This document shows positions 3,071 to 30,003 of a stretch of 64,000 nucleotides of DNA, one piece after another (positions within the stretch are counted from its first letter, which is position 1; each line of letters begins with the position of its first letter). Made by a program: the position numbers and the translations under genes. The stretch is from Eubacteriales bacterium (lineage in GTDB: Bacteria; Bacillota; Clostridia; Lachnospirales; Lachnospiraceae), in NCBI GenBank assembly GCA_030526005.1, contig JAUNDP010000001.1, positions 91,252 to 155,251 of the forward strand, read 5' to 3'. Under the pieces are notes generated by a model. The model saw only the letters and a list, made by a program, of their open reading frames with translations, was not told the DNA's origin and made no database searches.

Positions 3071-5086
3071 TTAATCTTTCTTTTTGACAATACGATAATA
3101 CGTTTTCGCTGTAAGAAAATATACAATCAAATATAGAAATCCAAACAGAACAGCAGTGATGCCGGTACAGATACCAAACAGATGGAAATCTTTCAGCTTA
3201 AACAGCGTAAGCACCTGACATAAGGCTGGAAATGCGACAGCTGTATGCAGAAGAGACATTCCAAGCGGCAAGAAGAAGACAAGAATAATTTGGTGATGAA
3301 TCGCTTTTTTGATCTCCTGATCGCTCATACCGACTCTCTGCATAATAAGAAAACGTTCTTTATCTTCATATCCCTCTGTAACCTGTTTGTAATAGATAAT
3401 CAGAACAGTAGCAATAGCAAATACGGCTACAAAAAACAGACCAGCAAAAAAGATACTGCCATAAATCTGATAAAAATCTTCTCTGGCGGCTGAAAGCGTA
3501 TCTACTGTGGCAAGATGTTCGCAGTAATTTAGATAATAGTTTCTGAGTGCATTGATTTCATAATTTTCCGATGCCAGATTATAATCGGAAAGATCATAAT
3601 ATTGTATCAGTTCATAACTGTATGTCATATCAGAAAGTTCTGCTACTTTTCTCACATCGTTTAAACGATGAAAAAGCTGATTGAATACTTCTTGATTTGG
3701 CAGAATCAAAATCATCTTTTCTCCATGGTATTCATTTGAAAGAAAACGTTTCCATTCTTGTTCGATCTCTACTTTTTTTAAAGAAAAACTCCATTCATCG
3801 ATCTGAATTTCATCATATTGTGCGGTATCATCTTCTGTATAAAAAAATACTTCATTTTCTGTTCCGGATAAAGGATATCCCGTAATTTTTTCAAAATCTT
3901 CTCTCACAAAGCAGGAAAACCGTTCCATATTTTCATATGTCTGCTCCCATGCGGAGATAGAAAACTGACCTTTTGAATCCTCTACACATGTTAAATCCAT
4001 TCTCTGAAAGGTCACTTCATTCTCTACTTTCACGCCGGATTTAGCAGCATAGTCAGCCGCTATCTGGCTCATCCATTCAGGTGATACCGGTTCATCAAAA
4101 TAAGATGAAACAGCAACCTCTCTTATAAAACGACTTCTTAAAATACTTTCTTCTCCAAAAAACAAGCTTGTGCATGTGGATACTGTAATCAAAACAGCAG
4201 TTGAGAGAATACAGATCGTCGCAAGTCCAGCAGCATTTTGCTTCATACGGTAAATCATCCCTGATACAGCGATAAAATTGGAAGGACGATAAAAAAAAGA
4301 TTCTTTTCTGCGCAAGAATTTCAGCAATGAAATACTGCCGGTCAGCATAACGCCGAATGTGCCTAAAATCACAAGCAGAACTGCCGGCAAAAACAGAAGA
4401 AACGCTTCATCTGGAGAGACAATATTCCATGCTGTGAGATAGCCGCCAATAAGACACAAAAAAGAAAGAAATGCGAGGATACGGTGCGATCTCGGCTCTT
4501 TTTCTCCTTCATGGCTCTGACGCAGAAGATCAGCTGGGCTTGTTTTCGATACACTAAATAAATCATACAGCAATACGAGAGAAAAAATAAATGCAGAAAA
4601 AATGACTGTAGACAGTACAGAATCAAAAGGAATGCGAAATGTCAGCTCAGACGGGATGTGAACAATCTTTAAAAGCACAAGAAACATAAGCTGACTTAAA
4701 AGCGCTCCGCTTCCTACAGCGACTACTGTACAGAACGTACCTACCAGAATTACTTCAAAAAATAACATTGTCCGAATATGACGTTTTTCCATTCCTAAGA
4801 TACGATAAATACTAAATTCTTTTTTTCTTCTCTTTAATAAAAAGCTGTTGACATAGAAGAGAAAGATAACAGCTACAATGCGATACAGTAATGCACACAT
4901 ACAAAGAATCGATGACATTTTAGATGCCCCGCGTACTTCTCCTGTGCGGATCATATCTTCTACTGAGAGCAAGATATACAACAAAGCTAATGTGAAAGAG
5001 CAGCTGAATAAGTAAGGGAAATATAAAGTTTTATTCTTTCTGATTCCATCTGCTGCCATCTTAAAATACAGAAAAAAGTTATTCAT
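3071..5086 (-). CDS. Bce-type ABC transporter permease (FtsX-like)
   Basis: 671 residues, matching BceB-family length. Ten predicted membrane segments in the Bce pattern: one N-terminal helix, a three-helix FtsX-like block, a helix pair, then a large extracellular domain of about 220 residues (roughly 320-540) rich in acidic and aromatic residues, and a C-terminal three-helix FtsX block. Family members sense and free lipid-cycle intermediates from peptide antibiotics and pass the signal to a partner histidine kinase. The start ATG overlaps the end of the ATPase gene by 4 nt. Together with the ATPase, kinase and regulator next door it forms a complete Bce-type detoxification module; the actual drug cannot be read from sequence because the sensing domain is poorly conserved. 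Confidence 0.9.
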   Translation of the reverse strand: MNNFFLYFKMAADGIRKNKTLYFPYLFSCSFTLALLYILLSVEDMIRTGEVRGASKMSSILCMCALLYRIVAVIFLFYVNSFLLKRRKKEFSIYRILGMEKRHIRTMLFFEVILVGTFCTVVAVGSGALLSQLMFLVLLKIVHIPSELTFRIPFDSVLSTVIFSAFIFSLVLLYDLFSVSKTSPADLLRQSHEGEKEPRSHRILAFLSFLCLIGGYLTAWNIVSPDEAFLLFLPAVLLVILGTFGVMLTGSISLLKFLRRKESFFYRPSNFIAVSGMIYRMKQNAAGLATICILSTAVLITVSTCTSLFFGEESILRSRFIREVAVSSYFDEPVSPEWMSQIAADYAAKSGVKVENEVTFQRMDLTCVEDSKGQFSISAWEQTYENMERFSCFVREDFEKITGYPLSGTENEVFFYTEDDTAQYDEIQIDEWSFSLKKVEIEQEWKRFLSNEYHGEKMILILPNQEVFNQLFHRLNDVRKVAELSDMTYSYELIQYYDLSDYNLASENYEINALRNYYLNYCEHLATVDTLSAAREDFYQIYGSIFFAGLFFVAVFAIATVLIIYYKQVTEGYEDKERFLIMQRVGMSDQEIKKAIHHQIILVFFLPLGMSLLHTAVAFPALCQVLTLFKLKDFHLFGICTGITAVLFGFLYLIVYFLTAKTYYRIVKKKD

Positions 5087-5847
5087 GATAAAATCCCTCC
5101 CTGAGAGAGCAGAGTCAGCGTATTTGAGATTTCCTGATACATTTCTTCATTTGTGCGTGCTCCCTTGTAAATTTGATGGTATACCACGCCATCTTTCATA
5201 AATAAGACGCGGCCGGCATGACTTGCTGCCCGTATGCTGTGTGTGACCATCAAAATCGTCTGCCCCATTTGATTGATCCGTTCAAAAACCTGGAGCAGAT
5301 TTTCAGTTGCTCTTGAATCAAGCGCTCCTGTAGGTTCATCTGCAAGCAGCAGTTTGGGATTCGTAATTAATGCTCTGGCAGCAGCAGCACGCTGTTTTTG
5401 CCCTCCTGATACCTCATATGGATATTTTTTTAAGATATCTGAGATTCCAAGAATCTTTGCAAGCGGTTCTAATCGTTCTCTCATTTCAGGTACCTTTTTT
5501 CCTGACAGCACAAGAGGAAGAAAAATATTATCCTGAAGAGTAAATGTATCGAGCAGATTGAAATCCTGAAATACAAATCCCAAATTTTCTCTTCGGTAAG
5601 CAGCAAGACGGCGTTCTGACACAGCAGCAAGATTTTGACCATCAACAATAATTTCTCCGGAAGTAGGGCGGTCAAGCGAAGCCAGAAGATTTAATAATGT
5701 AGTCTTTCCGGACCCAGATTCCCCCATAATGGCTGCATATTCTCCTTGTTCTATTGAGAAAGTGACATCGGAAAGCGCCTCTACCTGATTGGAACTAAGA
5801 TGACTGACATAAACTTTCTTTAAATGATTAACTTCTAATATTTTCAT
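5083..5847 (-). CDS. Bce-type ABC transporter ATP-binding protein
   Basis: 254 residues. Complete ATPase signature: Walker A GESGSGKT (42-49), Q-loop Gln94, VSGGQ (146-150), Walker B LLLADEP (167-173) and the TGALDS D-loop. The MacB/BceA-type sequence places it with the FtsX-like permease encoded 4 nt into its 3' end. It should power removal of cell-wall-active peptides or similar compounds from lipid II or undecaprenyl carriers. It is preceded by a two-box regulated promoter at 5877-5943 that is a near copy of the promoters before the glycosyltransferase gene and vanG. SD is GGGAGG, spaced 6 nt before the ATG. Confidence 0.93.
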   Translation of the reverse strand: MKILEVNHLKKVYVSHLSSNQVEALSDVTFSIEQGEYAAIMGESGSGKTTLLNLLASLDRPTSGEIIVDGQNLAAVSERRLAAYRRENLGFVFQDFNLLDTFTLQDNIFLPLVLSGKKVPEMRERLEPLAKILGISDILKKYPYEVSGGQKQRAAAARALITNPKLLLADEPTGALDSRATENLLQVFERINQMGQTILMVTHSIRAASHAGRVLFMKDGVVYHQIYKGARTNEEMYQEISNTLTLLSQGGILS

Positions 5848-5876
5848 AGATACCTCCCTGTTTTTTTTCTGTCTCT

Positions 5877-5943
5877 ATTATAAAAAAAGAGAAATGTAAT
5901 TGCCATTGTTTTAGCTTACATTTCTCTTTGTTAATCTTACATT
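5877..5943 (-). promoter_or_regulatory. Activator-type promoter of bceAB with two response-regulator boxes
   Basis: Read on the minus strand: direct repeats AATGTAAG at 5936-5943 and 5915-5922 (21 bp apart), a 9-nt gap, -35 TGGCAA (5900-5905, only 3/6 to consensus), 17-bp spacer, -10 TATAAT (5877-5882). A weak -35 with upstream direct repeats two helical turns apart is what OmpR-class activators use. The same layout with identical spacings is found at 6681-6747 and 26148-26214. The TGTAA core also recalls the BceR half-site known from Bacillus. Confidence 0.8.
5881..5927 (-). terminator. Hairpin overlapping the bceA promoter, possible terminator
   Basis: Perfect 12-bp stem AGAGAAATGTAA (5888-5899) / TTACATTTCTCT (5916-5927), loop 16 nt, followed on the minus strand by seven T. 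It would terminate transcripts from the glycosyltransferase gene, and its DNA also contains the proximal regulator box, the -35 and the spacer of the bceA promoter. The second stem arm makes an inverted TTACA copy of the box. Confidence 0.65.
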
Positions 5944-5951
5944 GACGTCAC

Positions 5952-6632
5952 TTATGGAATTACAACTGCACCAAGTTCAGACATCTGGCGCAGAATCTGA
6001 TTTTTTCGCTGCTCTGCCAGGTCTGGATTTTGATTCAGATCATAGACAGATGGAGCATTTGGTATACCTGCCAATGTGATACATTCTTCCTCCGTCAGAT
6101 CTTGAACATCTTTTCCATAATAACCACGGCTTGCCTCTGCGATTCCATAATAGCCGCTTCCAAAATAGATTGAATTTACATATAAAGCAAAGATTTCCTC
6201 TTTTGAAAAAGTCTGCTCCATTTTAAATGCCAGAAACATTTCAGCCGCTTTACGTTTCAGCATTTTTTCCTGCGTCAGATATTGATTCTTGGCAAGCTGC
6301 TGTGTGATGGTACTTCCTCCTTCTACATAACTACCAGCAGCAATATCATGGATCACAGCGCGTCCAATGGCGATCAGATCAATACCGCAGTGTTTAAAAA
6401 AACGTTTATCTTCAGCGGCAATCACAGCTTTACAGTAGACATCAGGCAAATCGCTGTATGGTATGAAATCTTCTTTACTCTCAATCTCATGCGCCATTTC
6501 ATATAGATCTTTCTCTGCTAACTTTTCTTTTGCTGTTGTAATTCCGGAAATACCTAAAACACCTGCTGCCAGAAAACAGATGATCAGGAAAGAAAGAATC
6601 AACAGTTTAAAACACTTTTTTATCCATTTCAT
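5952..6632 (-). CDS. Monofunctional peptidoglycan glycosyltransferase (GT51)
   Basis: 226 residues: an N-terminal membrane anchor (about 9-31) and a GT51 domain, with no penicillin-binding transpeptidase domain. Signature motifs are AAEDKRFFKHCGID (72-85, catalytic Glu74), GGSTITQQLAKN (105-116), the RKAAEMFLAFKMEQ segment and YFGSGYYGI. It should polymerise lipid II into glycan strands outside the membrane, like MtgA/SgtB enzymes. The ATG at 6632 is chosen because AGGGGAG lies before it and the protein then begins with the membrane helix. It sits between the Bce-type regulators and transporter and has its own copy of their two-box promoter, which implies it is induced under envelope stress. 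Monofunctional GT51 enzymes are resistant to beta-lactams. Confidence 0.92.
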   Translation of the reverse strand: MKWIKKCFKLLILSFLIICFLAAGVLGISGITTAKEKLAEKDLYEMAHEIESKEDFIPYSDLPDVYCKAVIAAEDKRFFKHCGIDLIAIGRAVIHDIAAGSYVEGGSTITQQLAKNQYLTQEKMLKRKAAEMFLAFKMEQTFSKEEIFALYVNSIYFGSGYYGIAEASRGYYGKDVQDLTEEECITLAGIPNAPSVYDLNQNPDLAEQRKNQILRQMSELGAVVIP

Positions 6633-6680
6633 ATATGTTCTCCCCTTTTTCTTTTGTGTACAGTGAAATTTTCTAATATT

Positions 6681-6747
6681 AGTATAAAAGAAAGAACATG
6701 ATCGTGCCATTCTCTTAGCTTACATTTCTTATATCAAACCTTACATT
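6681..6747 (-). promoter_or_regulatory. Activator-type promoter of the glycosyltransferase gene
   Basis: Minus strand: AATGTAAG boxes at 6740-6747 and 6719-6726 (21 bp apart), 9-nt gap, -35 TGGCAC (6704-6709), 17-bp spacer, -10 TATACT (6681-6686). From the proximal box to the -35 the sequence is nearly identical to the bceA promoter (boxes followed by CTAA...AATGGCA). Confidence 0.8.
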
Positions 6748-6755
6748 TTAGTAAG

Positions 6756-7760
6756 TTATTCTTCAAGAAGCGGGGGATGGGACAGATCAAGACGGACAAT
6801 AGTTCCTATACGAACGTGTGACTCAATCGAAATGGTATGCCCCAGCAAATCTGCAACTTGTTTGCAAAGAGAAAGTCCTATTCCAGTGGAACGTTTCTGA
6901 ATCCGTCCATTATATCCGGTATATCCCCATTCAAAAATACGCGGAAGATCTTCTGGTAAAATACCGATACCCGTATCTTGTATTACCAGACAAGAAGGAA
7001 GTTTTTTATCCATATAAATAGAGATCGTTCCTTGCTCCGGCGTATATTTTATTGCATTTGTCAAAAATTGTTCGATCAGAAAACAAGTCCATTTTTCATC
7101 TGTAATTACCATGTCATCTAGATCTTTTAAATCTAAACGGATTTTTTTATAGATAAACAACGGCGCAATTTTTTTTACTACTTGTCTTACCATATCTGAG
7201 ATATTATATTTTGCAATATGCAGATCGTTTGTATGATCTTCCAGTCGCTGATATTGGAGCGCCATATCAACGTATTGTTCAACTTTTAACAGTTCCAGTT
7301 CAATCTGACCGCGTTTTATAGATTCTTCCTGTAAAAGGAGGCGGATTGCAGAGAGCGGTGTTTTTATCTGATGACTCCATAATGTATAATACGTTTGCGT
7401 TCTGGAGGATTCGTCCTCTGCTTTTTTTTGCTCTTCCTGCAACGATTGCTGAAGAGATCGAATCAATTCCTGATAAAGATTTTCTTCTTCTGTATATGCT
7501 TTTGGCAAGGTTAAAGAGGTATAATCTTTCTGTGAGCAGCAGCGTTTTAGCTGAAAAATGTTTTTCCTTTTCTGTATCCAGATCAGTCCTCCAAACAGCA
7601 GAACAGTTGTCGCTGACAGAATAAGAGCATAAATCAGAGGAGAAAAAGGCAAAGCGTACAGAAAGAAAATGGCTGTCCATTCTAACGTACAGATCAGCAT
7701 ACAAAGCAGAATCCAGATCTGTTTTTTTATAAAATAAAGTAATCTTCTCATTCTTCTCAT
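6756..7760 (-). CDS. BceS-like intramembrane-sensing histidine kinase
   Basis: 334 residues. Two transmembrane helices (about 14-35 and 43-62) with only a few residues between them and no extracellular sensor domain: the hallmark of kinases that sense through a partner BceAB transporter. A coiled linker leads to the dimerisation helix with SHQIKTPLSA (His130 phosphoacceptor), then the ATPase domain with an N-box (FLTNAIKYTPEQG), DTGIGI and TGIGLSLCKQ. It overlaps the response regulator by 4 nt (ATGA) and is therefore translationally coupled. It ends a few bases before the promoter of the glycosyltransferase gene. Confidence 0.93.
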   Translation of the reverse strand: MRRMRRLLYFIKKQIWILLCMLICTLEWTAIFFLYALPFSPLIYALILSATTVLLFGGLIWIQKRKNIFQLKRCCSQKDYTSLTLPKAYTEEENLYQELIRSLQQSLQEEQKKAEDESSRTQTYYTLWSHQIKTPLSAIRLLLQEESIKRGQIELELLKVEQYVDMALQYQRLEDHTNDLHIAKYNISDMVRQVVKKIAPLFIYKKIRLDLKDLDDMVITDEKWTCFLIEQFLTNAIKYTPEQGTISIYMDKKLPSCLVIQDTGIGILPEDLPRIFEWGYTGYNGRIQKRSTGIGLSLCKQVADLLGHTISIESHVRIGTIVRLDLSHPPLLEE

Positions 7761-8458
7761 TGCGGAGACTCCAGAAAATATCCCATTCCTTTTTTGGTTG
7801 CAATGATCGTTCCAAGACCGATACTTTCCAGTCTTTTTCTAAGCCTTGCCATGTTTACAGTCAGTGTATTATCGTCGATAAAATTGTCTGTCTCCCATAA
7901 TTTCTGAATTAATTCCTCGCGTGTCACAATTTTTCCTGCATATTCCATCAATGTCTGCATCAAACGAAATTCATTTTTTGACAGTTCAATCTGCTGATTG
8001 TTGAAATTTAAAACAGCTTCACTGAGATTCAAAGAAATACTGCCATAAAAGAGGATATCCGGATTTTTTCCAAAAGTATATGTTCTGCGCAACATAGCCT
8101 GAATTTTGGCAACAGCAACTTCCAATCGAAATGGTTTTACGATAAAATCATCTGCTCCCATATTTAATGCCATAACCTGGTTTAAATCGTCGCCTGCTGA
8201 GGATAAAAATACAACAGGGGTCTTGCTGATTTCTCTGATTTTATGACACCAGTAGTATCCGTCATAAAATGGAAGTGAGATATCCATTAGAACAAGATGA
8301 GGGCTGCAAGCACGGAATTCCTCCAGGACATTTTGAAAATCCTGAATCGGATAGACTGAAAAATTCCACCGTGTCAGCTGGCGGCTTAGCACTTCCACAA
8401 TAGAAGTGTCATCCTCCACAAGAAAAATACGATATCTTTCTTTTAATGTCTGATCCAT
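7757..8458 (-). CDS. BceR-like OmpR-family response regulator
   Basis: 233 residues: receiver domain with acidic pocket EDD (15-17) and phosphorylation site Asp59 (LMDISLP), conserved Lys in the VKPF motif, then an OmpR-type winged-helix DNA-binding domain (about 130-230) with the YFLESP end. ATG at 8458 is preferred over an in-frame start at 8509 because AAAGGAGT precedes it. It is the most likely binder of the AATGTAAG direct repeats in front of the glycosyltransferase and bceAB genes, judging by its position and the general gene-regulator proximity of Bce systems; binding has to be inferred. Confidence 0.93.
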   Translation of the reverse strand: MDQTLKERYRIFLVEDDTSIVEVLSRQLTRWNFSVYPIQDFQNVLEEFRACSPHLVLMDISLPFYDGYYWCHKIREISKTPVVFLSSAGDDLNQVMALNMGADDFIVKPFRLEVAVAKIQAMLRRTYTFGKNPDILFYGSISLNLSEAVLNFNNQQIELSKNEFRLMQTLMEYAGKIVTREELIQKLWETDNFIDDNTLTVNMARLRKRLESIGLGTIIATKKGMGYFLESPQ

Positions 8459-23796: not shown

Positions 23797-23841
23797 ATTT
23801 TTCCTTTCTCGGTTTCATACTATATTGAATGAATCTTTTTT

Positions 23842-23870
23842 ATTATATCGAGTTTAAACAAAAAGTTCAA
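23842..23870 (-). promoter_or_regulatory. Sigma-A promoter of the radical SAM/DUF2344/rng operon
   Basis: Minus strand: TTGAAC (23865-23870), 17-bp spacer, TATAAT (23842-23847), about 45 bp before the start codon. Confidence 0.75.
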
Positions 23871-23979
23871 CGGTTTAGCAACGTTAAAGTGCACAAGATT
23901 TTTTTATTTTATTTTTCTCTTCTTTTTTATTTTCTGTCAGGTCAGACATAAGAATGTTCTGGTTCATCTTGATTTCTTC

Positions 23980-23988
23980 TGCTATAAT
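23980..23988 (+). promoter_or_regulatory. Extended -10 promoter of vanRS
   Basis: TGCTATAAT, a full extended -10 element; the -35 region (TGGTTC at 23960-23965) is poor. It lacks the ATGTAAG repeats found before vanG, so vanRS may be expressed at a basal constitutive level. Confidence 0.55.
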
Positions 23989-24041
23989 AGAAAATATAAT
24001 AAAAAAAGCGAAGATTAAAAATTAGAAATGAGGAGAGAATT

Positions 24042-24740
24042 TTGCCAAATATTTTACTTGTGGATGATGAGCAAGCCATTGCCGATTTAATCGAGGTTTA
24101 CTTAAAAAATGAAAATTTTACAGTGTATAAATACTACACTGGTCTGGAAGCGCTCCATTGCATTGATACAATACCGATTGATCTTGCCATTTTAGATCTC
24201 ATGCTTCCGGATATTGACGGACTCACAATCTGCCAGAAAATCAGAGAACATTATACATTCCCCATTTTAATGCTGACAGCAAAAGATGGTGAGATTGACC
24301 AGATCAATGGTTTTGCTCTCGGCGCAGATGACTATATCACAAAACCATTTCGTCCTCTGGAATTAATCGCCAGAGTGAAAGCAAATCTGCGCCGTGTCAC
24401 CTGTTATAACCAGTCAGAAAAATCAAGAGTAGGATCTTCGCTGCTCAGTGTGCGAGGTCTTTCCATCAATGCAGAAAGTCATGAATGTTTTCTGAATGAA
24501 CGCCCTTTGTCACTGACTCCTACCGAATTTGAAATTTTAAAAATTTTATGCGAAAATCTTGGAAAAGTCGTCAGCTCTGAAGAATTATTTCAAAGAGTCT
24601 GGAAAGAAAAATATTATGAGAATGCTTCAAATACAGTGATGGTTCATATTCGCCATATCCGTGCAAAGATGAAAGAATCTGCTGAACGTCCAAAATATAT
24701 AAAAACAGTATGGGGAGTGGGGTATAAAATCGATGAATAA
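24042..24740 (+). CDS. vanR: VanR-type response regulator of the vanG cluster
   Basis: 232 residues. Receiver domain with VDDE (7-10) and phosphoacceptor Asp52 (LDLMLPDIDG), conserved Lys in ITKPF, and OmpR-type winged helix ending in WGVGYKIDE. Start codon is TTG at 24042, chosen because GAGGAGAG lies 6 nt before it and MPNILLVDDE is the conserved N-terminus; no ATG is possible without losing the receiver's first strand. It overlaps vanS by 8 nt. By location it should activate the vanG promoter; the ATGTAAG boxes there are identical to those of the bce module, so binding by the BceR-like protein is also possible. Confidence 0.92.
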   Translation: MPNILLVDDEQAIADLIEVYLKNENFTVYKYYTGLEALHCIDTIPIDLAILDLMLPDIDGLTICQKIREHYTFPILMLTAKDGEIDQINGFALGADDYITKPFRPLELIARVKANLRRVTCYNQSEKSRVGSSLLSVRGLSINAESHECFLNERPLSLTPTEFEILKILCENLGKVVSSEELFQRVWKEKYYENASNTVMVHIRHIRAKMKESAERPKYIKTVWGVGYKIDE

Positions 24741-25854
24741 AAAGAAAACCTTTTTTACACCGCTAAAAGTCATCGGCGGCGTTTTTTTATTTGTTCTGTT
24801 TATTGAATATCTGTTTGATCATGTTTTTAACGGTGTTTTTGTTGAATGGTTTGCAAGCAATTTTACATGGACGGAAACAGACTATGCCGGAAATATAGAT
24901 ACCAGCATAAACTGGAATGCTTTAACCGGTTTTTTGACAATGGCATTTTTCCTTTTTTGTCTTGTGCTTGCATTTGCCGTTTCCTTTTTAAAAAAGCAGC
25001 AGGCGAAAAGGACAAAGCGTGAAGTCATTGAGACATTTTCTGATCAACTAGATCAGTTTTTAGAAAAAAATGGAGATCTTTCTGTTTTTTCAAAAGATTT
25101 TTCTTCCATCAGTCTGCCGATCAGTAAACTTCAAAAAAATTCTTTGGAGAAGGAACGCCTTTTGGAACAGGAAATGCAGCAGAAAAATGATTTGATTACC
25201 TATCTGGCACATGATTTAAAGACACCGCTTGCTTCTGTGATTGGATATCTTTGTCTCTTGGATGAAACTCCAGATTTACCGGCTGATCTTCGAGAAAAAT
25301 ATATTGGAATCACACTTGAAAAATCATATCGTCTGGAACAGCTGATCAATGAATTTTTTGAGATCACACGGTATAATCTGCACAAAATTGTTATCACACC
25401 AGGCAAAATTCATATTAAGCAGATGCTGCTGCAAATGGCTGATGAGTTCTTCCCTATTTTAGAAGCAGATAAAAAGAAAATTACCGTTGACGCTCCAGAC
25501 GATTTTGTATTTGTAGGGGATGCGGATAAGTTAGCCAGAGTATTTAACAATATTTTAAAAAATGCGGCATCTTACAGTGATCCCCAAACAACGATTCAAA
25601 TTAAAGTAACGCCTGAAAAAGAAAATGTCAAAATTTCTTTTACAAATGAAGGAACTCCTATCCCAGCTCACTTGTGTCAGACAATCTTTGAAAAATTTTA
25701 TCGTCTAGACAGTTCCAGATCAAGCAAAACAGGAGGTTCTGGACTTGGACTGGCGATTGCAAAAGAGATTGTCACAGCTCATCATGGTGTTATAGAGGTA
25801 AAAAGTAATCCTCAATGCACTGTTTTTACTGTAACACTGCCAATCCATCAATAA
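24733..25854 (+). CDS. vanS: VanS-type sensor histidine kinase of the vanG cluster
   Basis: 373 residues. Two membrane helices (about 11-31 and 65-87) bounding a short extracellular loop of about 35 residues, HAMP-like linker, dimerisation helix with LAHDLKTPL (His160), and the ATPase domain with NILKNAASY (N-box) and GSGLGLAIAKE (G2 box). The family senses glycopeptides or wall damage and phosphorylates VanR. Sequence and size resemble VanS of vanG/vanC-type clusters rather than the long-loop VanS of vanB. Confidence 0.9.
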   Translation: MNKKKTFFTPLKVIGGVFLFVLFIEYLFDHVFNGVFVEWFASNFTWTETDYAGNIDTSINWNALTGFLTMAFFLFCLVLAFAVSFLKKQQAKRTKREVIETFSDQLDQFLEKNGDLSVFSKDFSSISLPISKLQKNSLEKERLLEQEMQQKNDLITYLAHDLKTPLASVIGYLCLLDETPDLPADLREKYIGITLEKSYRLEQLINEFFEITRYNLHKIVITPGKIHIKQMLLQMADEFFPILEADKKKITVDAPDDFVFVGDADKLARVFNNILKNAASYSDPQTTIQIKVTPEKENVKISFTNEGTPIPAHLCQTIFEKFYRLDSSRSSKTGGSGLGLAIAKEIVTAHHGVIEVKSNPQCTVFTVTLPIHQ

Positions 25855-25861
25855 AAAACAA

Positions 25862-25881
25862 CGAATCAAATATTTGATTCG
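25862..25881. repeat. 20-bp perfect palindrome after vanS
   Basis: CGAATCAA/TTGATTCG arms around ATAT, 7 bp after the vanS stop, followed by ATTTTAT. Could be a weak terminator of the vanRS transcript or a protein-binding site. Confidence 0.6.
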
Positions 25882-25997: not shown

Positions 25998-26147
25998 ATT
26001 TCTGTGCCCATTTTTTGTTGTTCGGAAATTTATTACATTTCCATAAGGAAATCTTAAGGCGTTTGGCAGATTCCTGCAAGAACTGTTTCTTCTTTTTCTG
26101 ATAGGATAAGTCTTGTAAAAAATCCTATGTGACAAAAAAATGACATC

Positions 26148-26214
26148 TATGTAAGATTTTAAAATGAAAATGTAAGACAAAACGATGTCAGTTTTTTCAA
26201 AGATTTTTTATAAT
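26148..26214 (+). promoter_or_regulatory. Activator-type promoter of vanG-vanXY-vanT
   Basis: Direct repeats TATGTAAG (26148-26155) and AATGTAAG (26169-26176), 21 bp apart; 9-nt gap; -35 TGTCAG (26186-26191, weak); 17-bp spacer; -10 TATAAT (26209-26214). All spacings equal those of the two promoters in the bce module, and the stretch from the proximal box to the -35 (AATGTAAG..AAAAC.ATG.CA) is shared with bceA. Leader to vanG is about 20 nt. Confidence 0.85.
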
Positions 26215-26241
26215 AAAAGAAAAAAGAAGGGGTACTTATTT

Positions 26242-27291
26242 ATGATAAATCATAAGAAAACAATCGCCATTTTATTTGGAGGAAAATCAAGCGAATATGC
26301 TGTTTCTCTGCAGTCTGCTGCCGCAGTGATACGGGCAATCAATCAAGAAAAATATAATCTGTTTCTGATAGGAATCGATCCATCTGGACAATGGTTCCAT
26401 TTTAAAGGAGAGGTCAGTCAGATTGAAGCAGATACATGGAAATCTGATGCCATTCCAGCTTTTATTTCTCCCGATCCATCTGTCCATGGTATTTTAGAGC
26501 AGTCAGAATCTGGCATCTTTGCCTATCCTATTGACGCTGCCTTTCCAATTCTGCATGGAAAAAACGGAGAAGATGGAACAATACAGGGGCTTTTGGAACT
26601 TGCCGGTATTCCCTGTATCGGATGTGGACTGCTTTCAAGCGCACTGTGCATGGATAAAGACCGCGCCCATAAACTTGCCTTTCTTGCAGGAGTAAACGTT
26701 CCGCGCTGTATTAAAGTAGATAAAATCGGAACAGATGAACAGATGAGGCAGCAGGCAAAAGAACTGTCTTATCCAATCTTTGTAAAACCGATTCATGCCG
26801 GTTCTTCGTTTGGCATCACAAAAGTTGTAAAAGAAGAAGAACTGATGTCTGCTGTTGCCACAGCATTTACTTATGATACAGAAGTCATTTTAGAAGAAGC
26901 GATCGAAGGATTTGAAGTTGGATGTGCAATTATTGGAAAGGACAAACTGCAAACAGGAGAGATAGATGAAATTGAATTGTCGGAAGGTTTCTTTGATTTC
27001 ACAGAAAAGTATACGCTTAAGACCTCAAAAATTCATATGCCTGCAAGAATAGACGCTGAAACAGCAAACTTGATTAAAAAGACAGCTTGTCTGTTATATC
27101 GTACGCTCGGATGTTCTGGTTTTGCAAGGGTGGATCTGTTTGTAACACCTGAAAAAGAAATTTATTTTAATGAAATTAATACGATTCCGGGATTTACTTC
27201 TCACAGCCGCTTTCCCAATATGATGCGCGGGGCAGGTTATACTTTTGAAGCACTTGTCGAAAAACTGATTGAACAGGAGGTATCATCATGA
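26242..27291 (+). CDS. vanG: D-alanine--D-serine ligase, VanG type
   Basis: 349 residues, the usual VanG length. ATP-grasp ligase: GGKSSEYAVSL at the N-terminus, LHGKNGEDGTIQG, KPIHAGSSFGI, and NEINTIPGFTSHSRFPNM at the C-terminal metal site. The ω-loop reads EKYTLKTSK (Glu255-Lys256-Tyr257), the form found in D-Ala-D-Ser ligases of the VanG/VanC/VanE group and not in D-Ala-D-Lac enzymes. The product gives peptidoglycan precursors ending in D-Ser, with lowered vancomycin affinity. ATG at 26242 (after AAGAAGGGG) is preferred to an in-frame start at 26185, which lies inside the promoter. The stop overlaps the vanXY start by 4 nt. Confidence 0.95.
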   Translation: MINHKKTIAILFGGKSSEYAVSLQSAAAVIRAINQEKYNLFLIGIDPSGQWFHFKGEVSQIEADTWKSDAIPAFISPDPSVHGILEQSESGIFAYPIDAAFPILHGKNGEDGTIQGLLELAGIPCIGCGLLSSALCMDKDRAHKLAFLAGVNVPRCIKVDKIGTDEQMRQQAKELSYPIFVKPIHAGSSFGITKVVKEEELMSAVATAFTYDTEVILEEAIEGFEVGCAIIGKDKLQTGEIDEIELSEGFFDFTEKYTLKTSKIHMPARIDAETANLIKKTACLLYRTLGCSGFARVDLFVTPEKEIYFNEINTIPGFTSHSRFPNMMRGAGYTFEALVEKLIEQEVSS

Positions 27292-27872
27292 ATCATAGAG
27301 CAAATTTTTATTTACAGTTGGTTTCTCCCGACCATCCAGTTGAATTAGTCCCTGCTGATCAGGATCTGATTCCAGCCTTTAAAGCGTTCCCAGATATTTT
27401 AATGGAACGTTATGCTGCCTTTGCATTGCAGGCTCTCATAAACAGATTACATGCAGATGGTCAGATTGTGCCCGTCAGCGGTTTTCGCACGCAGCAGGAA
27501 CAACAAAAAATATGGGATGACACGGTAAAACAGAGTGGTCTGGCTTATACGAAAAAATATGTTGCTATTCCAGGATGCAGTGAACATCAGACAGGTCTTG
27601 CGATTGATCTTGCGTTAAATAAAGAAAAAATAGATTTTATCTGTCCATCTTTTCCAAATGAAGGAGTCTGCCGTCAATTTCAGCAGCTGGCGCCTTTCTA
27701 TGGATTTATTCTGCGATATCCAGAAGGGAAAGAGCAAGTCACTAAGATTGGATGGGAACCATGGCATTTTCGTTATGTTGGAACACCTCATGCACAGATT
27801 ATTTCAGCGCATAATCTTACTTTAGAAGAATATCTGCTGCATACTTATATTTCGAAAGCGTGTGCCAGATGA
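27288..27872 (+). CDS. vanXY: D,D-dipeptidase/D,D-carboxypeptidase VanXY
   Basis: 194 residues, M15B metallopeptidase. Zinc ligands His100 and Asp107 in SEHQTGLAID and His160 in EPWHF; catalytic Glu157. VanXY enzymes hydrolyse D-Ala-D-Ala and remove the terminal D-Ala from pentapeptide precursors, clearing the drug's normal target so the D-Ser form dominates. Size is like VanXY of vanC/vanG clusters. AGGAGG precedes the ATG at 27288, and the gene is overlapped by 4 nt on both sides (ATGA junctions with vanG and vanT), indicating tight coupling. Confidence 0.94.
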   Translation: MNHRANFYLQLVSPDHPVELVPADQDLIPAFKAFPDILMERYAAFALQALINRLHADGQIVPVSGFRTQQEQQKIWDDTVKQSGLAYTKKYVAIPGCSEHQTGLAIDLALNKEKIDFICPSFPNEGVCRQFQQLAPFYGFILRYPEGKEQVTKIGWEPWHFRYVGTPHAQIISAHNLTLEEYLLHTYISKACAR

Positions 27873-28900
27873 AAGAGCAGAAATATCCGGCAATGGACTG
27901 GATGAGAATGATCTGTGCTTTTTTGGTGGTAGCGATTCATACTTCTGTTCTTTCCTCGTTTTCTGAGACAGCGGATTTTTTTCTGACAGGAATTGTCTGT
28001 CGAATTGCAGTTCCATTTTTCTTTATGGTATCAGGATTTTTTCTGATGCCTAAAATAGCATCCCGTTTTTCTTCTGTCATAAAAACAGAAAAGAAACTGC
28101 TTGTCATGTACATGGCATCTGTTTTACTGTATCTTCCGCTGAATATTTATGCAGGACAGTACTTTTTTAAAGATCTTCCTTCCTTTTTTCGGGCATTCTT
28201 TTTGGATGGAACCTTTTACCATCTATGGTACTTTCCGGCAGCAGCAGAGGGAATTTTGCTTCTTGGACTGATGCAGCGCTTGTTTTCCAGAAAAATCTGT
28301 ATGTTTTTTTGCATTCTTCTGTATCTCATTGGTCTTGGGGGCGACAGTTATTATGGAATAATCAAAGATATTCCATTGCTTCAATCATTTTATGATACTT
28401 ATTTTCAAATCGGAACGTATACAAGAAATGGATTCTTTTTTGCACCTGTATTTCTTTGCCTGGGCTGGATTTTATCAGATACCAGAAACAGATTATTTTT
28501 TCCGCACGCAAAGAAAATTTCATTGGTTTCTTTTGCACTGCTCATCGCAGAGGGATGGCTGCTGCATACATTTCAGATACCGCGCCATGACAGTATGTAT
28601 CTGTATCTGCTTCCATGTATGTATGGAATATTTTCTGTGCTTACAGCTATTCCATGCAGCAGTCAGATCTCTTTCCGAAAGATTTCAATGTTCATCTATA
28701 TCATCCATCCCTGGGTGATTGTACTCGTGCGTGCTTTTTCTGGTTTTCTTCATCTGGATTCCTTCTTTGTAAATCAAAGTTTGATTCATTTTCTTGCAGT
28801 ATCCGGTATATCTTATACTTTGGCGGTGATTTTATGGAAAATACAACAAAAAATTTTGAACAAAAAAAACATGAAATTTTTCGTACCTGGGCGGAATTAG
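27869..28900 (+). CDS. vanT: VanT membrane (acyltransferase-3-like) domain as separate reading frame
   Basis: 343 residues corresponding to the N-terminal membrane half of VanT. About ten transmembrane helices; start KYPAMDWMRMICAFLVVAIH is typical of acyltransferase-3-like VanT N-domains, thought to bring in L-serine or anchor the racemase. In known VanT this part is fused to the racemase. Here the frame ends at a TAG (28898-28900), 67 nt inside the racemase gene. The zero frame holds AAC AAA AAA AAC near its end; A_AAA_AAC at 28864-28870 is a canonical -1 slippery heptamer, and a -1 shift there would restore the usual fusion. ATG at 27869 overlaps the vanXY stop; SD weak. Confidence 0.85.
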   Translation: MKEQKYPAMDWMRMICAFLVVAIHTSVLSSFSETADFFLTGIVCRIAVPFFFMVSGFFLMPKIASRFSSVIKTEKKLLVMYMASVLLYLPLNIYAGQYFFKDLPSFFRAFFLDGTFYHLWYFPAAAEGILLLGLMQRLFSRKICMFFCILLYLIGLGGDSYYGIIKDIPLLQSFYDTYFQIGTYTRNGFFFAPVFLCLGWILSDTRNRLFFPHAKKISLVSFALLIAEGWLLHTFQIPRHDSMYLYLLPCMYGIFSVLTAIPCSSQISFRKISMFIYIIHPWVIVLVRAFSGFLHLDSFFVNQSLIHFLAVSGISYTLAVILWKIQQKILNKKNMKFFVPGRN

Positions 28901-30003
28901 ACTTAAATGCTTTGCGGCAGAATGTCTCTGAGATAAAAAAGATTTTGCCTGACAGCTGTCAGATTATGGCTGTGGTAAAAGCAAATGCATATGGTCATGG
29001 AGATGTGCTCATTTCCAGTCATTTAAATCAGATGGGTATTTATTCCTTTGCTGTAGCTACATTAGAAGAGGCAATTCATCTGCGCAAATTTGGCATAGAA
29101 GGCAGTATATTAATTCTTGGATATACGCCTGCTCTCTATGCACCGGAGCTGATGCAGTATGATTTGACACAGACTGTCGCAGATTTTTCTCATGCACAGG
29201 AACTTGCAAAGACAAAGATTCCTGTAAAAGTTGAAATTAAAATCGATACAGGAATGCATCGCCTTGGCATTACGCCGGAACATAACGAAGAAATTGTGTC
29301 TTTATTCTCTATTCCGACTTTTTCTGTCTGCGGAATGTATACACATTTATGCGTCGCTGACAGTCAGGAGCCAGAAGATGTTGCGTTTTCCAAAAAGCAG
29401 CTGAAATCTTTTGCATATCTTACAGATCTGCTCGAGGCAGCAGGCATCGCTCTGCCGCCTCTGCATGTACAAAGCAGCTATGGGGTTTTAAATTATCCTT
29501 TTTTAAAATATGATTTTGCACGAATTGGAATTCTATTGTATGGCTGTCACAGCCAGTTTGAAGAATCCTGTCTTATGAATCCTGATGTACGACCTGTTCT
29601 TTCGCTGTACAGTCATGTTGCACTGATTCGTGAAGTGGAAGAAGGAGACACCGTTGGATATGGCAGAACTTATAAAGCAAAAAGAAAAAGACATTTGGCT
29701 GTGATACCAGTTGGATATGCAGATGGATACCCTCGATCGTTATCCAATCGAGGGTATGTTTTAATTCACGGACAGCGTGCCAGAATTGTAGGCCGTATCT
29801 GCATGGATCAAATGATCGCAGATGTTACGGCGATTGAAAATGTCTGCGTTGGTGATCGCGTTACGTTAATTGGAAAGGATGGAAGAGACAGAATTTATGC
29901 CGAAGAACTTGCCGCACTTTCCAAAACCATTACAAATGAATTGCTCAGCCGATTAGGCTCCAGAATTACCCGTGTATTGCTTATTGATAAAAAATTTGAG
30001 TAA
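28834..30003 (+). CDS. vanT: VanT serine racemase domain as separate reading frame
   Basis: 389 residues, alanine-racemase fold (PLP). Lys in AVVKANAYGHG binds PLP; GYGRTYKAKR carries the catalytic Tyr; GYADGYPRSLSNRG is a family motif. Asn368 in TITNELLSRLG replaces the Tyr that contacts substrate in alanine racemases (TIxYE), the change reported to give VanT its serine racemase activity. ATG at 28834 has GGCGGTGAT 7 nt before it, nearly the full anti-SD complement, so independent translation is likely; a longer in-frame start at 28615 has no such site. It is in the -1 frame relative to the membrane domain. It supplies D-Ser to VanG. The 3' end overlaps hflC (opposite strand) by 23 nt. Confidence 0.9.
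   Translation: MENTTKNFEQKKHEIFRTWAELDLNALRQNVSEIKKILPDSCQIMAVVKANAYGHGDVLISSHLNQMGIYSFAVATLEEAIHLRKFGIEGSILILGYTPALYAPELMQYDLTQTVADFSHAQELAKTKIPVKVEIKIDTGMHRLGITPEHNEEIVSLFSIPTFSVCGMYTHLCVADSQEPEDVAFSKKQLKSFAYLTDLLEAAGIALPPLHVQSSYGVLNYPFLKYDFARIGILLYGCHSQFEESCLMNPDVRPVLSLYSHVALIREVEEGDTVGYGRTYKAKRKRHLAVIPVGYADGYPRSLSNRGYVLIHGQRARIVGRICMDQMIADVTAIENVCVGDRVTLIGKDGRDRIYAEELAALSKTITNELLSRLGSRITRVLLIDKKFE

Follow-up and report, generated by a model that had tools for sequence, protein, structure and literature searches.

The window, by which we mean the whole stretch of 64,000 nucleotides analysed here, from a Lachnospiraceae bacterium of gut type, carries a vanG operon on the forward strand, and a Bce-type module with a peptidoglycan glycosyltransferase (PGT) gene on the reverse strand. 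The vanG operon and its control region comprise the following features, G002 being a genome of the same genus:

24042–24740, forward strand: vanR (NCBIfam vanR_ACDEGLN, 370.7 bits, cut-off 350)
24733–25854, forward strand: vanS-like kinase gene (HK_VanS_ACDEFG, 314.7 bits, below the cut-off of 400)
26041–26063, forward strand: candidate VanR tandem site of promoter P1, with an 11-bp period, degenerate (matrix score 9.2, P 0.006; 6 mismatches, P 0.04; alignment with G002)
26102–26107, forward strand: candidate −10 of the putatively inherited P1, TAGGAT (TATGAT in G002), placed by alignment
26140–26220, forward strand: P2 of vanG, a BceR-type promoter with boxes, poor −35 and −10 (genome-wide profile E 1.9e-10; weight matrix 38.3)
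26141–26155, forward strand: P2 box 1, TGACA-TCTA-TGTAA-G (from the sequence and the family consensus)
26170–26176, forward strand: P2 box 2, ATGTAAG, a direct repeat 21 bp after box 1 (from the sequence and pattern search)
26185–26190, forward strand: poor −35 of P2, ATGTCA (from the sequence)
26209–26214, forward strand: −10 of P2, a perfect TATAAT (from the sequence)
26242–27291, forward strand: vanG, D-Ala-D-Ser ligase (NF000091, 539.7 bits, cut-off 495)
27288–27872, forward strand: vanXY-like D,D-peptidase gene (230.6 bits, below the cut-off of 250)
27860–28900, forward strand: membrane part of vanT (vanT-CELN positions 4–335 of 697, 265.4 bits, below the cut-off of 900)
28615–30003, forward strand: racemase part of VanT, a separate overlapping ORF with its likely start further in (Pfam Ala_racemase N and C)

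The predicted role of the operon is to modify the target of vancomycin in the cell wall. VanXY and VanT appear to be divergent homologues, called by gene order and domains; VanT is split (27860–30003), with both parts adjacent in G002 and in a second relative, G023, too. The only terminator-like sites in the vanS–vanG gap form a weak hairpin at 25862–25881, one per strand.

The reverse-strand features, listed from the regulator gene onwards, are:

7757–8458, reverse strand: BceR-type response regulator (recognition helix like those of BceRs from other bce loci)
6756–7760, reverse strand: BceS-type kinase (in other genera, homologues are encoded between bceR and bceA; of the curated families shown, none reached its cut-off)
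6674–6755, reverse strand: BceR-type promoter of the PGT gene (E 2.5e-14)
5952–6632, reverse strand: PGT, monofunctional by length (Pfam Transgly, 212 bits; TIGR02070, 148.8, below the cut-off of 182.65)
5870–5951, reverse strand: BceR-type promoter of bceA (E 2.8e-14)
5083–5847, reverse strand: bceA (identity mostly 60–71%, in one case 48%, to ATPases that follow this promoter in other genera)
3071–5086, reverse strand: bceB, FtsX permease (domain search)

The Bce module is complete, with BceR, BceS, BceA and BceB together, and homologues occur in the same order in other genera; in the other-genus bce loci seen, no PGT gene lies between bceS and bceA.

As the initial annotation had claimed, the vanG promoter repeats the boxes of the bce-type promoters: ATGTAAG stands on the forward strand at 26149–26155, within box 1 (TATGTAAG being bases 26148–26155), and again 21 bp on at 26170–26176, where the second box reads AATGTAAG. 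The 21/9/17 spacing given there for these promoters differs only in placing the hexamer one base away; with ATGTCA or ATGGCA as the −35, the bceA, PGT and vanG promoters all have gaps of 21/8/18. The alignment of family promoters has the consensus CTTACA-N4-TGTAAG, a second TGTAAG 20–21 bp on, then ATGGC and the −10. P2 agrees with the family bceA promoters in the distance to the second TGTAAG, in its poor −35 and in the near-fixed distance of the −10, and departs from the consensus in TGACA for TTACA, in A for C after box 2, and in ATGTCA for ATGGCA; box 1 matches the inverted repeat TTACA-N4-TGTAA at all but one base. TNACA-N4-TGTAA is the general BceR motif. The first box of the family consensus matches Bce-type operators in print, namely AnnTTACnAnnnnGTnAG, which agrees with box 1 (available part of PMC10858260), and the TTACAA-N2-TTGTAA operator of Streptococcus mutans BceR (available part of PMC11034029), which argues that the boxes are of BceR type.

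These sites are rare in the assembly to which the window belongs (2.51 Mb, 68 contigs). ATGTAAG-N14-ATGTAAG occurs three times, always in the window, upstream of bceA, the PGT gene and vanG. When the gap is widened to N12..16 the window still holds three matches, against a shuffle mean of 0.01, and the whole assembly the same three, against none for the reversed-pattern control. One mismatch in the double ATGTAAG brings in no further site in the whole assembly; two bring in 23, for a total of 26 against 51 in the reversed control, so the reversed pattern has at least as many such sites. The looser TGTAAG-N13..17-TGTAAG adds one assembly site, which lies outside the window on contig C50, upstream of a second bceAB operon (TTGTAAG/ATGTAAG, 20-bp spacing). 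A 51-bp weight matrix, built on 24 promoters from outside the window (22 distinct), ranks the three window sites first, at 47.6, 45.6 and, for vanG, 38.3; the next match scores 4.1, and the maximum over 100 Markov sequences of 64 kb was 8.96. A sequence profile of 38 promoters from outside the window (34 from other genera, one from G001, two from G002 and that of C50) finds C50 (1.6e-16), PGT (2.5e-14), bceA (2.8e-14) and vanG (1.9e-10), followed by a fifth match at 0.126; 150 of 2164 first-look candidates were scored in this search, and the pattern searches agree on the four sites. With four sites in the assembly by profile, the case of a motif scattered over hundreds of unrelated places, named in advance as telling against a regulon, does not apply.

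Of the four sites, that of vanG scores lowest, with 41.8 bits where the others have 54 to 61. Because the training sites had been picked by their boxes, we scored separately the columns outside the ATGTAAG boxes, training on 11 loci of 29. On this measure vanG scores 10.8, the 11 bce promoters score 9.5 to 42.5 in leave-one-out, and 19 double boxes from 18 other loci reach at most −11.3; the non-core columns of vanG thus group with the bce promoters, at their low end, and not with chance double boxes. A chance origin of the vanG double box is rejected by the pattern counts, shuffles, reversed controls and weight matrix.

Across 394 sampled genomes of the family Lachnospiraceae, searched with stricter filters and with 11 candidates scored per genome, the profile has matches in 193 at E ≤ 0.01. 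Downstream genes were examined for 150 listed sites (E ≤ 2.6e-9), a tally that includes the 38 profile-training promoters, which match by construction: 123 are bceA-like (the best window-protein match starting at most 420 bp downstream, E ≤ 1e-5, being bceA), 3 bceB, 9 PGT, 4 VanZ-RDD and 1 vanG, the last being the window's own. The other 10 sites precede small membrane proteins, a DUF1093 protein (a family we take to be the same as YxeA) or no assigned gene. The alignment behind the profile already contained seven of the nine PGT promoters and many of those of bceA. Neither of the two DNA patterns from which the promoter set was started makes any demand on the downstream gene, and the second gives 23 sites in 21 of the 394 genomes (reversed control, 0): 18 before bceA, 1 before vanG, 1 before a small membrane protein and 3 lacking promoter context. 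In this family, the box is associated with bceA. What emerges from the analysis is a sharply defined Bce-type promoter for Lachnospiraceae, whose putative targets away from bceAB repeatedly include PGT and VanZ-RDD genes; the VanZ-RDD genes lie directly behind BceR-type promoters in four genomes (G017, G341, G243 and G180; loci L338, L343, L360 and L378), two being assigned by Pfam and two by likeness.

Small predicted membrane proteins of about 56–68 residues are encoded behind BceR-type promoters at L192, L368, L369, L381, L384, L387 and L392; a Pfam search of those at L368, L369, L381 and L387 gave none at family cut-off. L211 and L367 have BceR-type sites with no evident same-strand gene downstream, followed in both by an opposite-strand gene of 390–391 codons. 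A third, more distant Bce-type locus, on contig C58 (L175:5469–5600), has TGTAAC boxes at 21-bp spacing, which suggests a shifted specificity. The bceA-type promoters also contain a co-varying palindrome, GGGAAATG...CATTTCCC, that spans box 2 and the −35/−10 spacer. Among the 100 of 126 promoters (L271–L396) with a recognisable second box, the complementarity of a promoter's own arms averages 6.99 of 8, against 5.78 (sd 0.07) with arms swapped; the window bceA promoter has 8 of 8 and P2 has 6 of 8, which is not significant (P 0.22). This palindrome could be a specificity address between paralogous systems.

The PGT gene had been counted as part of an unusual trio, but the box also stands upstream of PGT genes in other genomes of the family. 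It is present at 10 of 30 PGT loci taken from the best family matches, those of the window and G002 being among the ten, and absent by profile from the remaining 20; PGT promoters from other genomes were kept out of the profile used here. No bceR or bceS homologue was seen in the PGT loci outside the window, which span 2.4–3.7 kb. Two loci without a box have an ABC-type gene beside the PGT gene, BceA-like (45%) at L258 and an ABC ATPase (29%) at L250, and in G251 the PGT gene lies about 5 kb from a Bce-type site. The box-bearing loci elsewhere indicate that, in this family, PGT genes lying apart from bceRSAB are repeatedly Bce targets. It is vanG, not PGT, that is the new element among Bce targets.

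One explanation offered at the outset for the vanG site was a DNA specificity shared by VanR and BceR. The recognition helices differ (DNTLTVNMARLRKRL in BceR, SNTVMVHIRHIRAKM in VanR), and the VanR helix is identical in G002, whose vanG has no box. The proposed helix comparison gives a shared specificity no support; the window BceR helix matches those of BceRs whose bceA promoters have the box. The box was also considered as a general feature of vanG promoters, and this was rejected: the Bce profile, run at E ≤ 1 over 945 kb from 90 vanG loci (L033–L120, L180 and L181, including duplicates such as G002, G023 and copies, and a few loci with little upstream DNA), found only the window's own site, and reading by eye of the 170 bp before vanG in 76 of 80 loci (all but L048, L082, L099 and L109, where vanG is near a contig start) found no box.

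VanR-type sites were sought with the tandem consensus (T/C)CGTANGAAA(T/A)T at 11-bp period, taken from the available part of PMC4405338. In the 43 of the 80 loci that have upstream a VanS and a VanR of at least 50% identity, such a repeat was present at P ≤ 0.02 in 31 vanG upstream regions and not in the other 12, with a mean best mismatch of 4.6 versus 8.5 in shuffles (50 letter, not dinucleotide, shuffles each). A matrix was made from 26 distinct sites chosen for few mismatches, whose training scores run from 15.5 to 33.8. It gives 8.3 (P 0.016) at the G002 site aligned with that of the window and 10.3 (0/500 shuffles) upstream of G023 vanG; these scores and that of the window are all below every training site. 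By mismatch count the aligned G002 site has P 0.545 and G023 has its best count elsewhere (P 0.085), the aligned sites in these two genomes being found by the matrix only. Given the low matrix scores, and mismatch counts that are marginal in the window and not significant in G002, the VanR site is a candidate, degenerate in the clade. Its retention at 26041–26063, upstream of P2, leaves unsupported the earlier argument that one of the regulators must otherwise ignore its nearest operon. The vanRS promoter of the window (23797–24041) has no ATGTAAG pair and no detectable VanR-type site (matrix −2.6, P 0.59), whereas the vanRS promoters of relatives carry one (G002, 14.9, P 0.002; G023, 11.8, 0/500), so VanR autoregulation has possibly been lost here.

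We consider it probable that the vanG operon is read from tandem promoters, a candidate inherited VanR-type P1 and a BceR-type P2. That P2 is of BceR type, rather than a site shared by VanR and BceR, follows from the different VanR helix, from G002, and from the operon's own candidate VanR site about 100 bp upstream; together, P2 and that upstream candidate suggest tandem promoters. The relative G002 lacks the BceR-type P2, and P1 seems to be the inherited, VanR-type element. The claim that a single regulator may serve all three operons survives in the form that bceAB, the PGT gene and vanG plausibly answer to one BceR-type specificity; the same promoter is detected by profile at all three. 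From this one genome we infer binding, activation, inducer and physiological effect as follows. On meeting a lipid II-directed peptide antibiotic, BceAB would activate BceS; phosphorylated BceR, the window's own or its C50 paralogue, would bind the TGACA-N4-TGTAA box and the ATGTAAG repeat 21 bp downstream and recruit RNA polymerase to P2, with its good −10 and poor −35. Pump, glycan polymerase and D-Ala-D-Ser operon would be induced together, and VanRS would add its own input to the vanG operon through P1. The arrangement suggests that two different alarms could switch on the vanG operon.

The window and G002 can be aligned across the VanR site and the old −10; beyond these, the window has extra sequence that holds P2. 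From the VanR site to the start codon there are 201 bp in the window and 117 bp in G002, a difference of 84 bp, or about one such promoter; in G023, which has no box, the distance is 200 bp, so an insertion is supported by G002 alone. Of the five promoters compared, P2 is closest to that of the window bceA (67% identity, versus 59% to C50), with which it shares TGAC.TC.ATGTAAGATT and the 21-bp spacing, and this likeness makes it possible that P2 was copied from the bceA promoter. A fuller scenario, less likely than not, is that a Bce promoter was copied in front of vanG, that vanRS lost its autoregulation by VanR and that the old −10 decayed. Control of vanG would in this way have shifted for the most part from VanRS, which senses vancomycin, to BceAB, which senses flux, and precursor remodelling would chiefly answer to lipid II-binding peptides, not glycopeptides.

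The affinity of P2 to the window bceA promoter also argues against the C50 BceR paralogue, in place of the window BceR or equally with it, as the regulator acting on P2. The C50 helix, ENTLTVNMARLRKKL, is nearly the same as that of the window BceR; in G002, moreover, a PGT site has 21-bp spacing and the bceA site of the BceR most similar to that of the window (53%) has 20 bp, so that spacing may be tolerated. We regard an assignment to C50 as unlikely, if the best placed of the alternatives. It is more doubtful still that P2 is a degenerate or silent relic, kin to Bce promoters and without regulatory effect: it is the weakest of the four sites and occurs in one genome only, but both boxes, the spacing and the perfect TATAAT are intact, its non-core columns score like bce promoters, and a purine-rich AAGAAGGGG suited to ribosome binding lies ahead of the vanG start. 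Least probable by our estimate, and rejected as an account of P2, is a VanR site, with the VanR of this lineage binding ATGTAAG repeats and perhaps cross-regulating the bce genes. In its favour, vanR adjoins vanG, GTAAG-like cores occur in both specificities, and direct repeats are a frequent target of OmpR-family regulators. Against it, the closest match to the VanR tandem motif in the P2 region still misses 7 of 22 positions (whole-intergenic shuffles average 8.07), none of the three best VanR-matrix matches upstream of the window vanG falls in P2, a VanR-type site is present upstream of it, the vanRS promoter lacks the ATGTAAG pair, G002 combines the identical helix with a boxless vanG, and the box precedes bceA-like genes in many genomes.

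If the tandem-promoter reading is correct, a gut commensal could be driven by peptide antibiotics (bacteriocins or bacitracin-like compounds), with no vancomycin present, to a target change of the glycopeptide type; within one genus, a van operon would then have come under a different regulator.

The initial annotation knew of no described regulon of this composition. This holds for the van operon, none being found under a BceR-type regulator in the open-licence full-text literature, where a single paper, PMC8227053, names both BceR and vanG, but not for the remainder: the promoter is also present before PGT genes elsewhere in the family, and Bce-type control of distant envelope genes is published (available part of PMC10858260). 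vanG is thus a new target, in one genome, for a known kind of regulon. The BceR, PsdR and ApsR regulators of Lacticaseibacillus paracasei similarly belong to BceRS–BceAB-type modules with a TTAC-type operator, control the non-adjacent derAB, mprF and dlt, and include a paralogue that cross-regulates; in the part of PMC10858260 available, their targets include no D-Ala-D-Ser operon, whereas the second TGTAAG box 20–21 bp downstream is nearly constant here. The Lactococcus lactis YsaDCB/TCS-G module (available part of PMC7438565) adjoins the VanZ-domain protein YsaA and includes a YxeA-like YsaD, recalling the VanZ-RDD and DUF1093 genes behind BceR-type promoters in this family, but ysaA has its own putative promoter, and that part describes neither control of ysaA by TCS-G nor a D-Ala-D-Ser ligase operon. 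Staphylococcus aureus GraR is likewise BceR-like with dispersed envelope targets, but its palindrome, ACAAATTTGT, differs, and no van operon is among its targets as described in the available part of PMC3128592. The PYG promoter of Enterococcus faecalis BM4518, finally, resembles the vanG locus of the window in its vanG-type genes and in being bound by VanR at directly repeated 12-bp motifs; at that single promoter, VanU, a repressor, overlaps with three VanR motifs (available part of PMC4405338), whereas the window has one tandem VanR-type candidate site and a separate BceR-type promoter.
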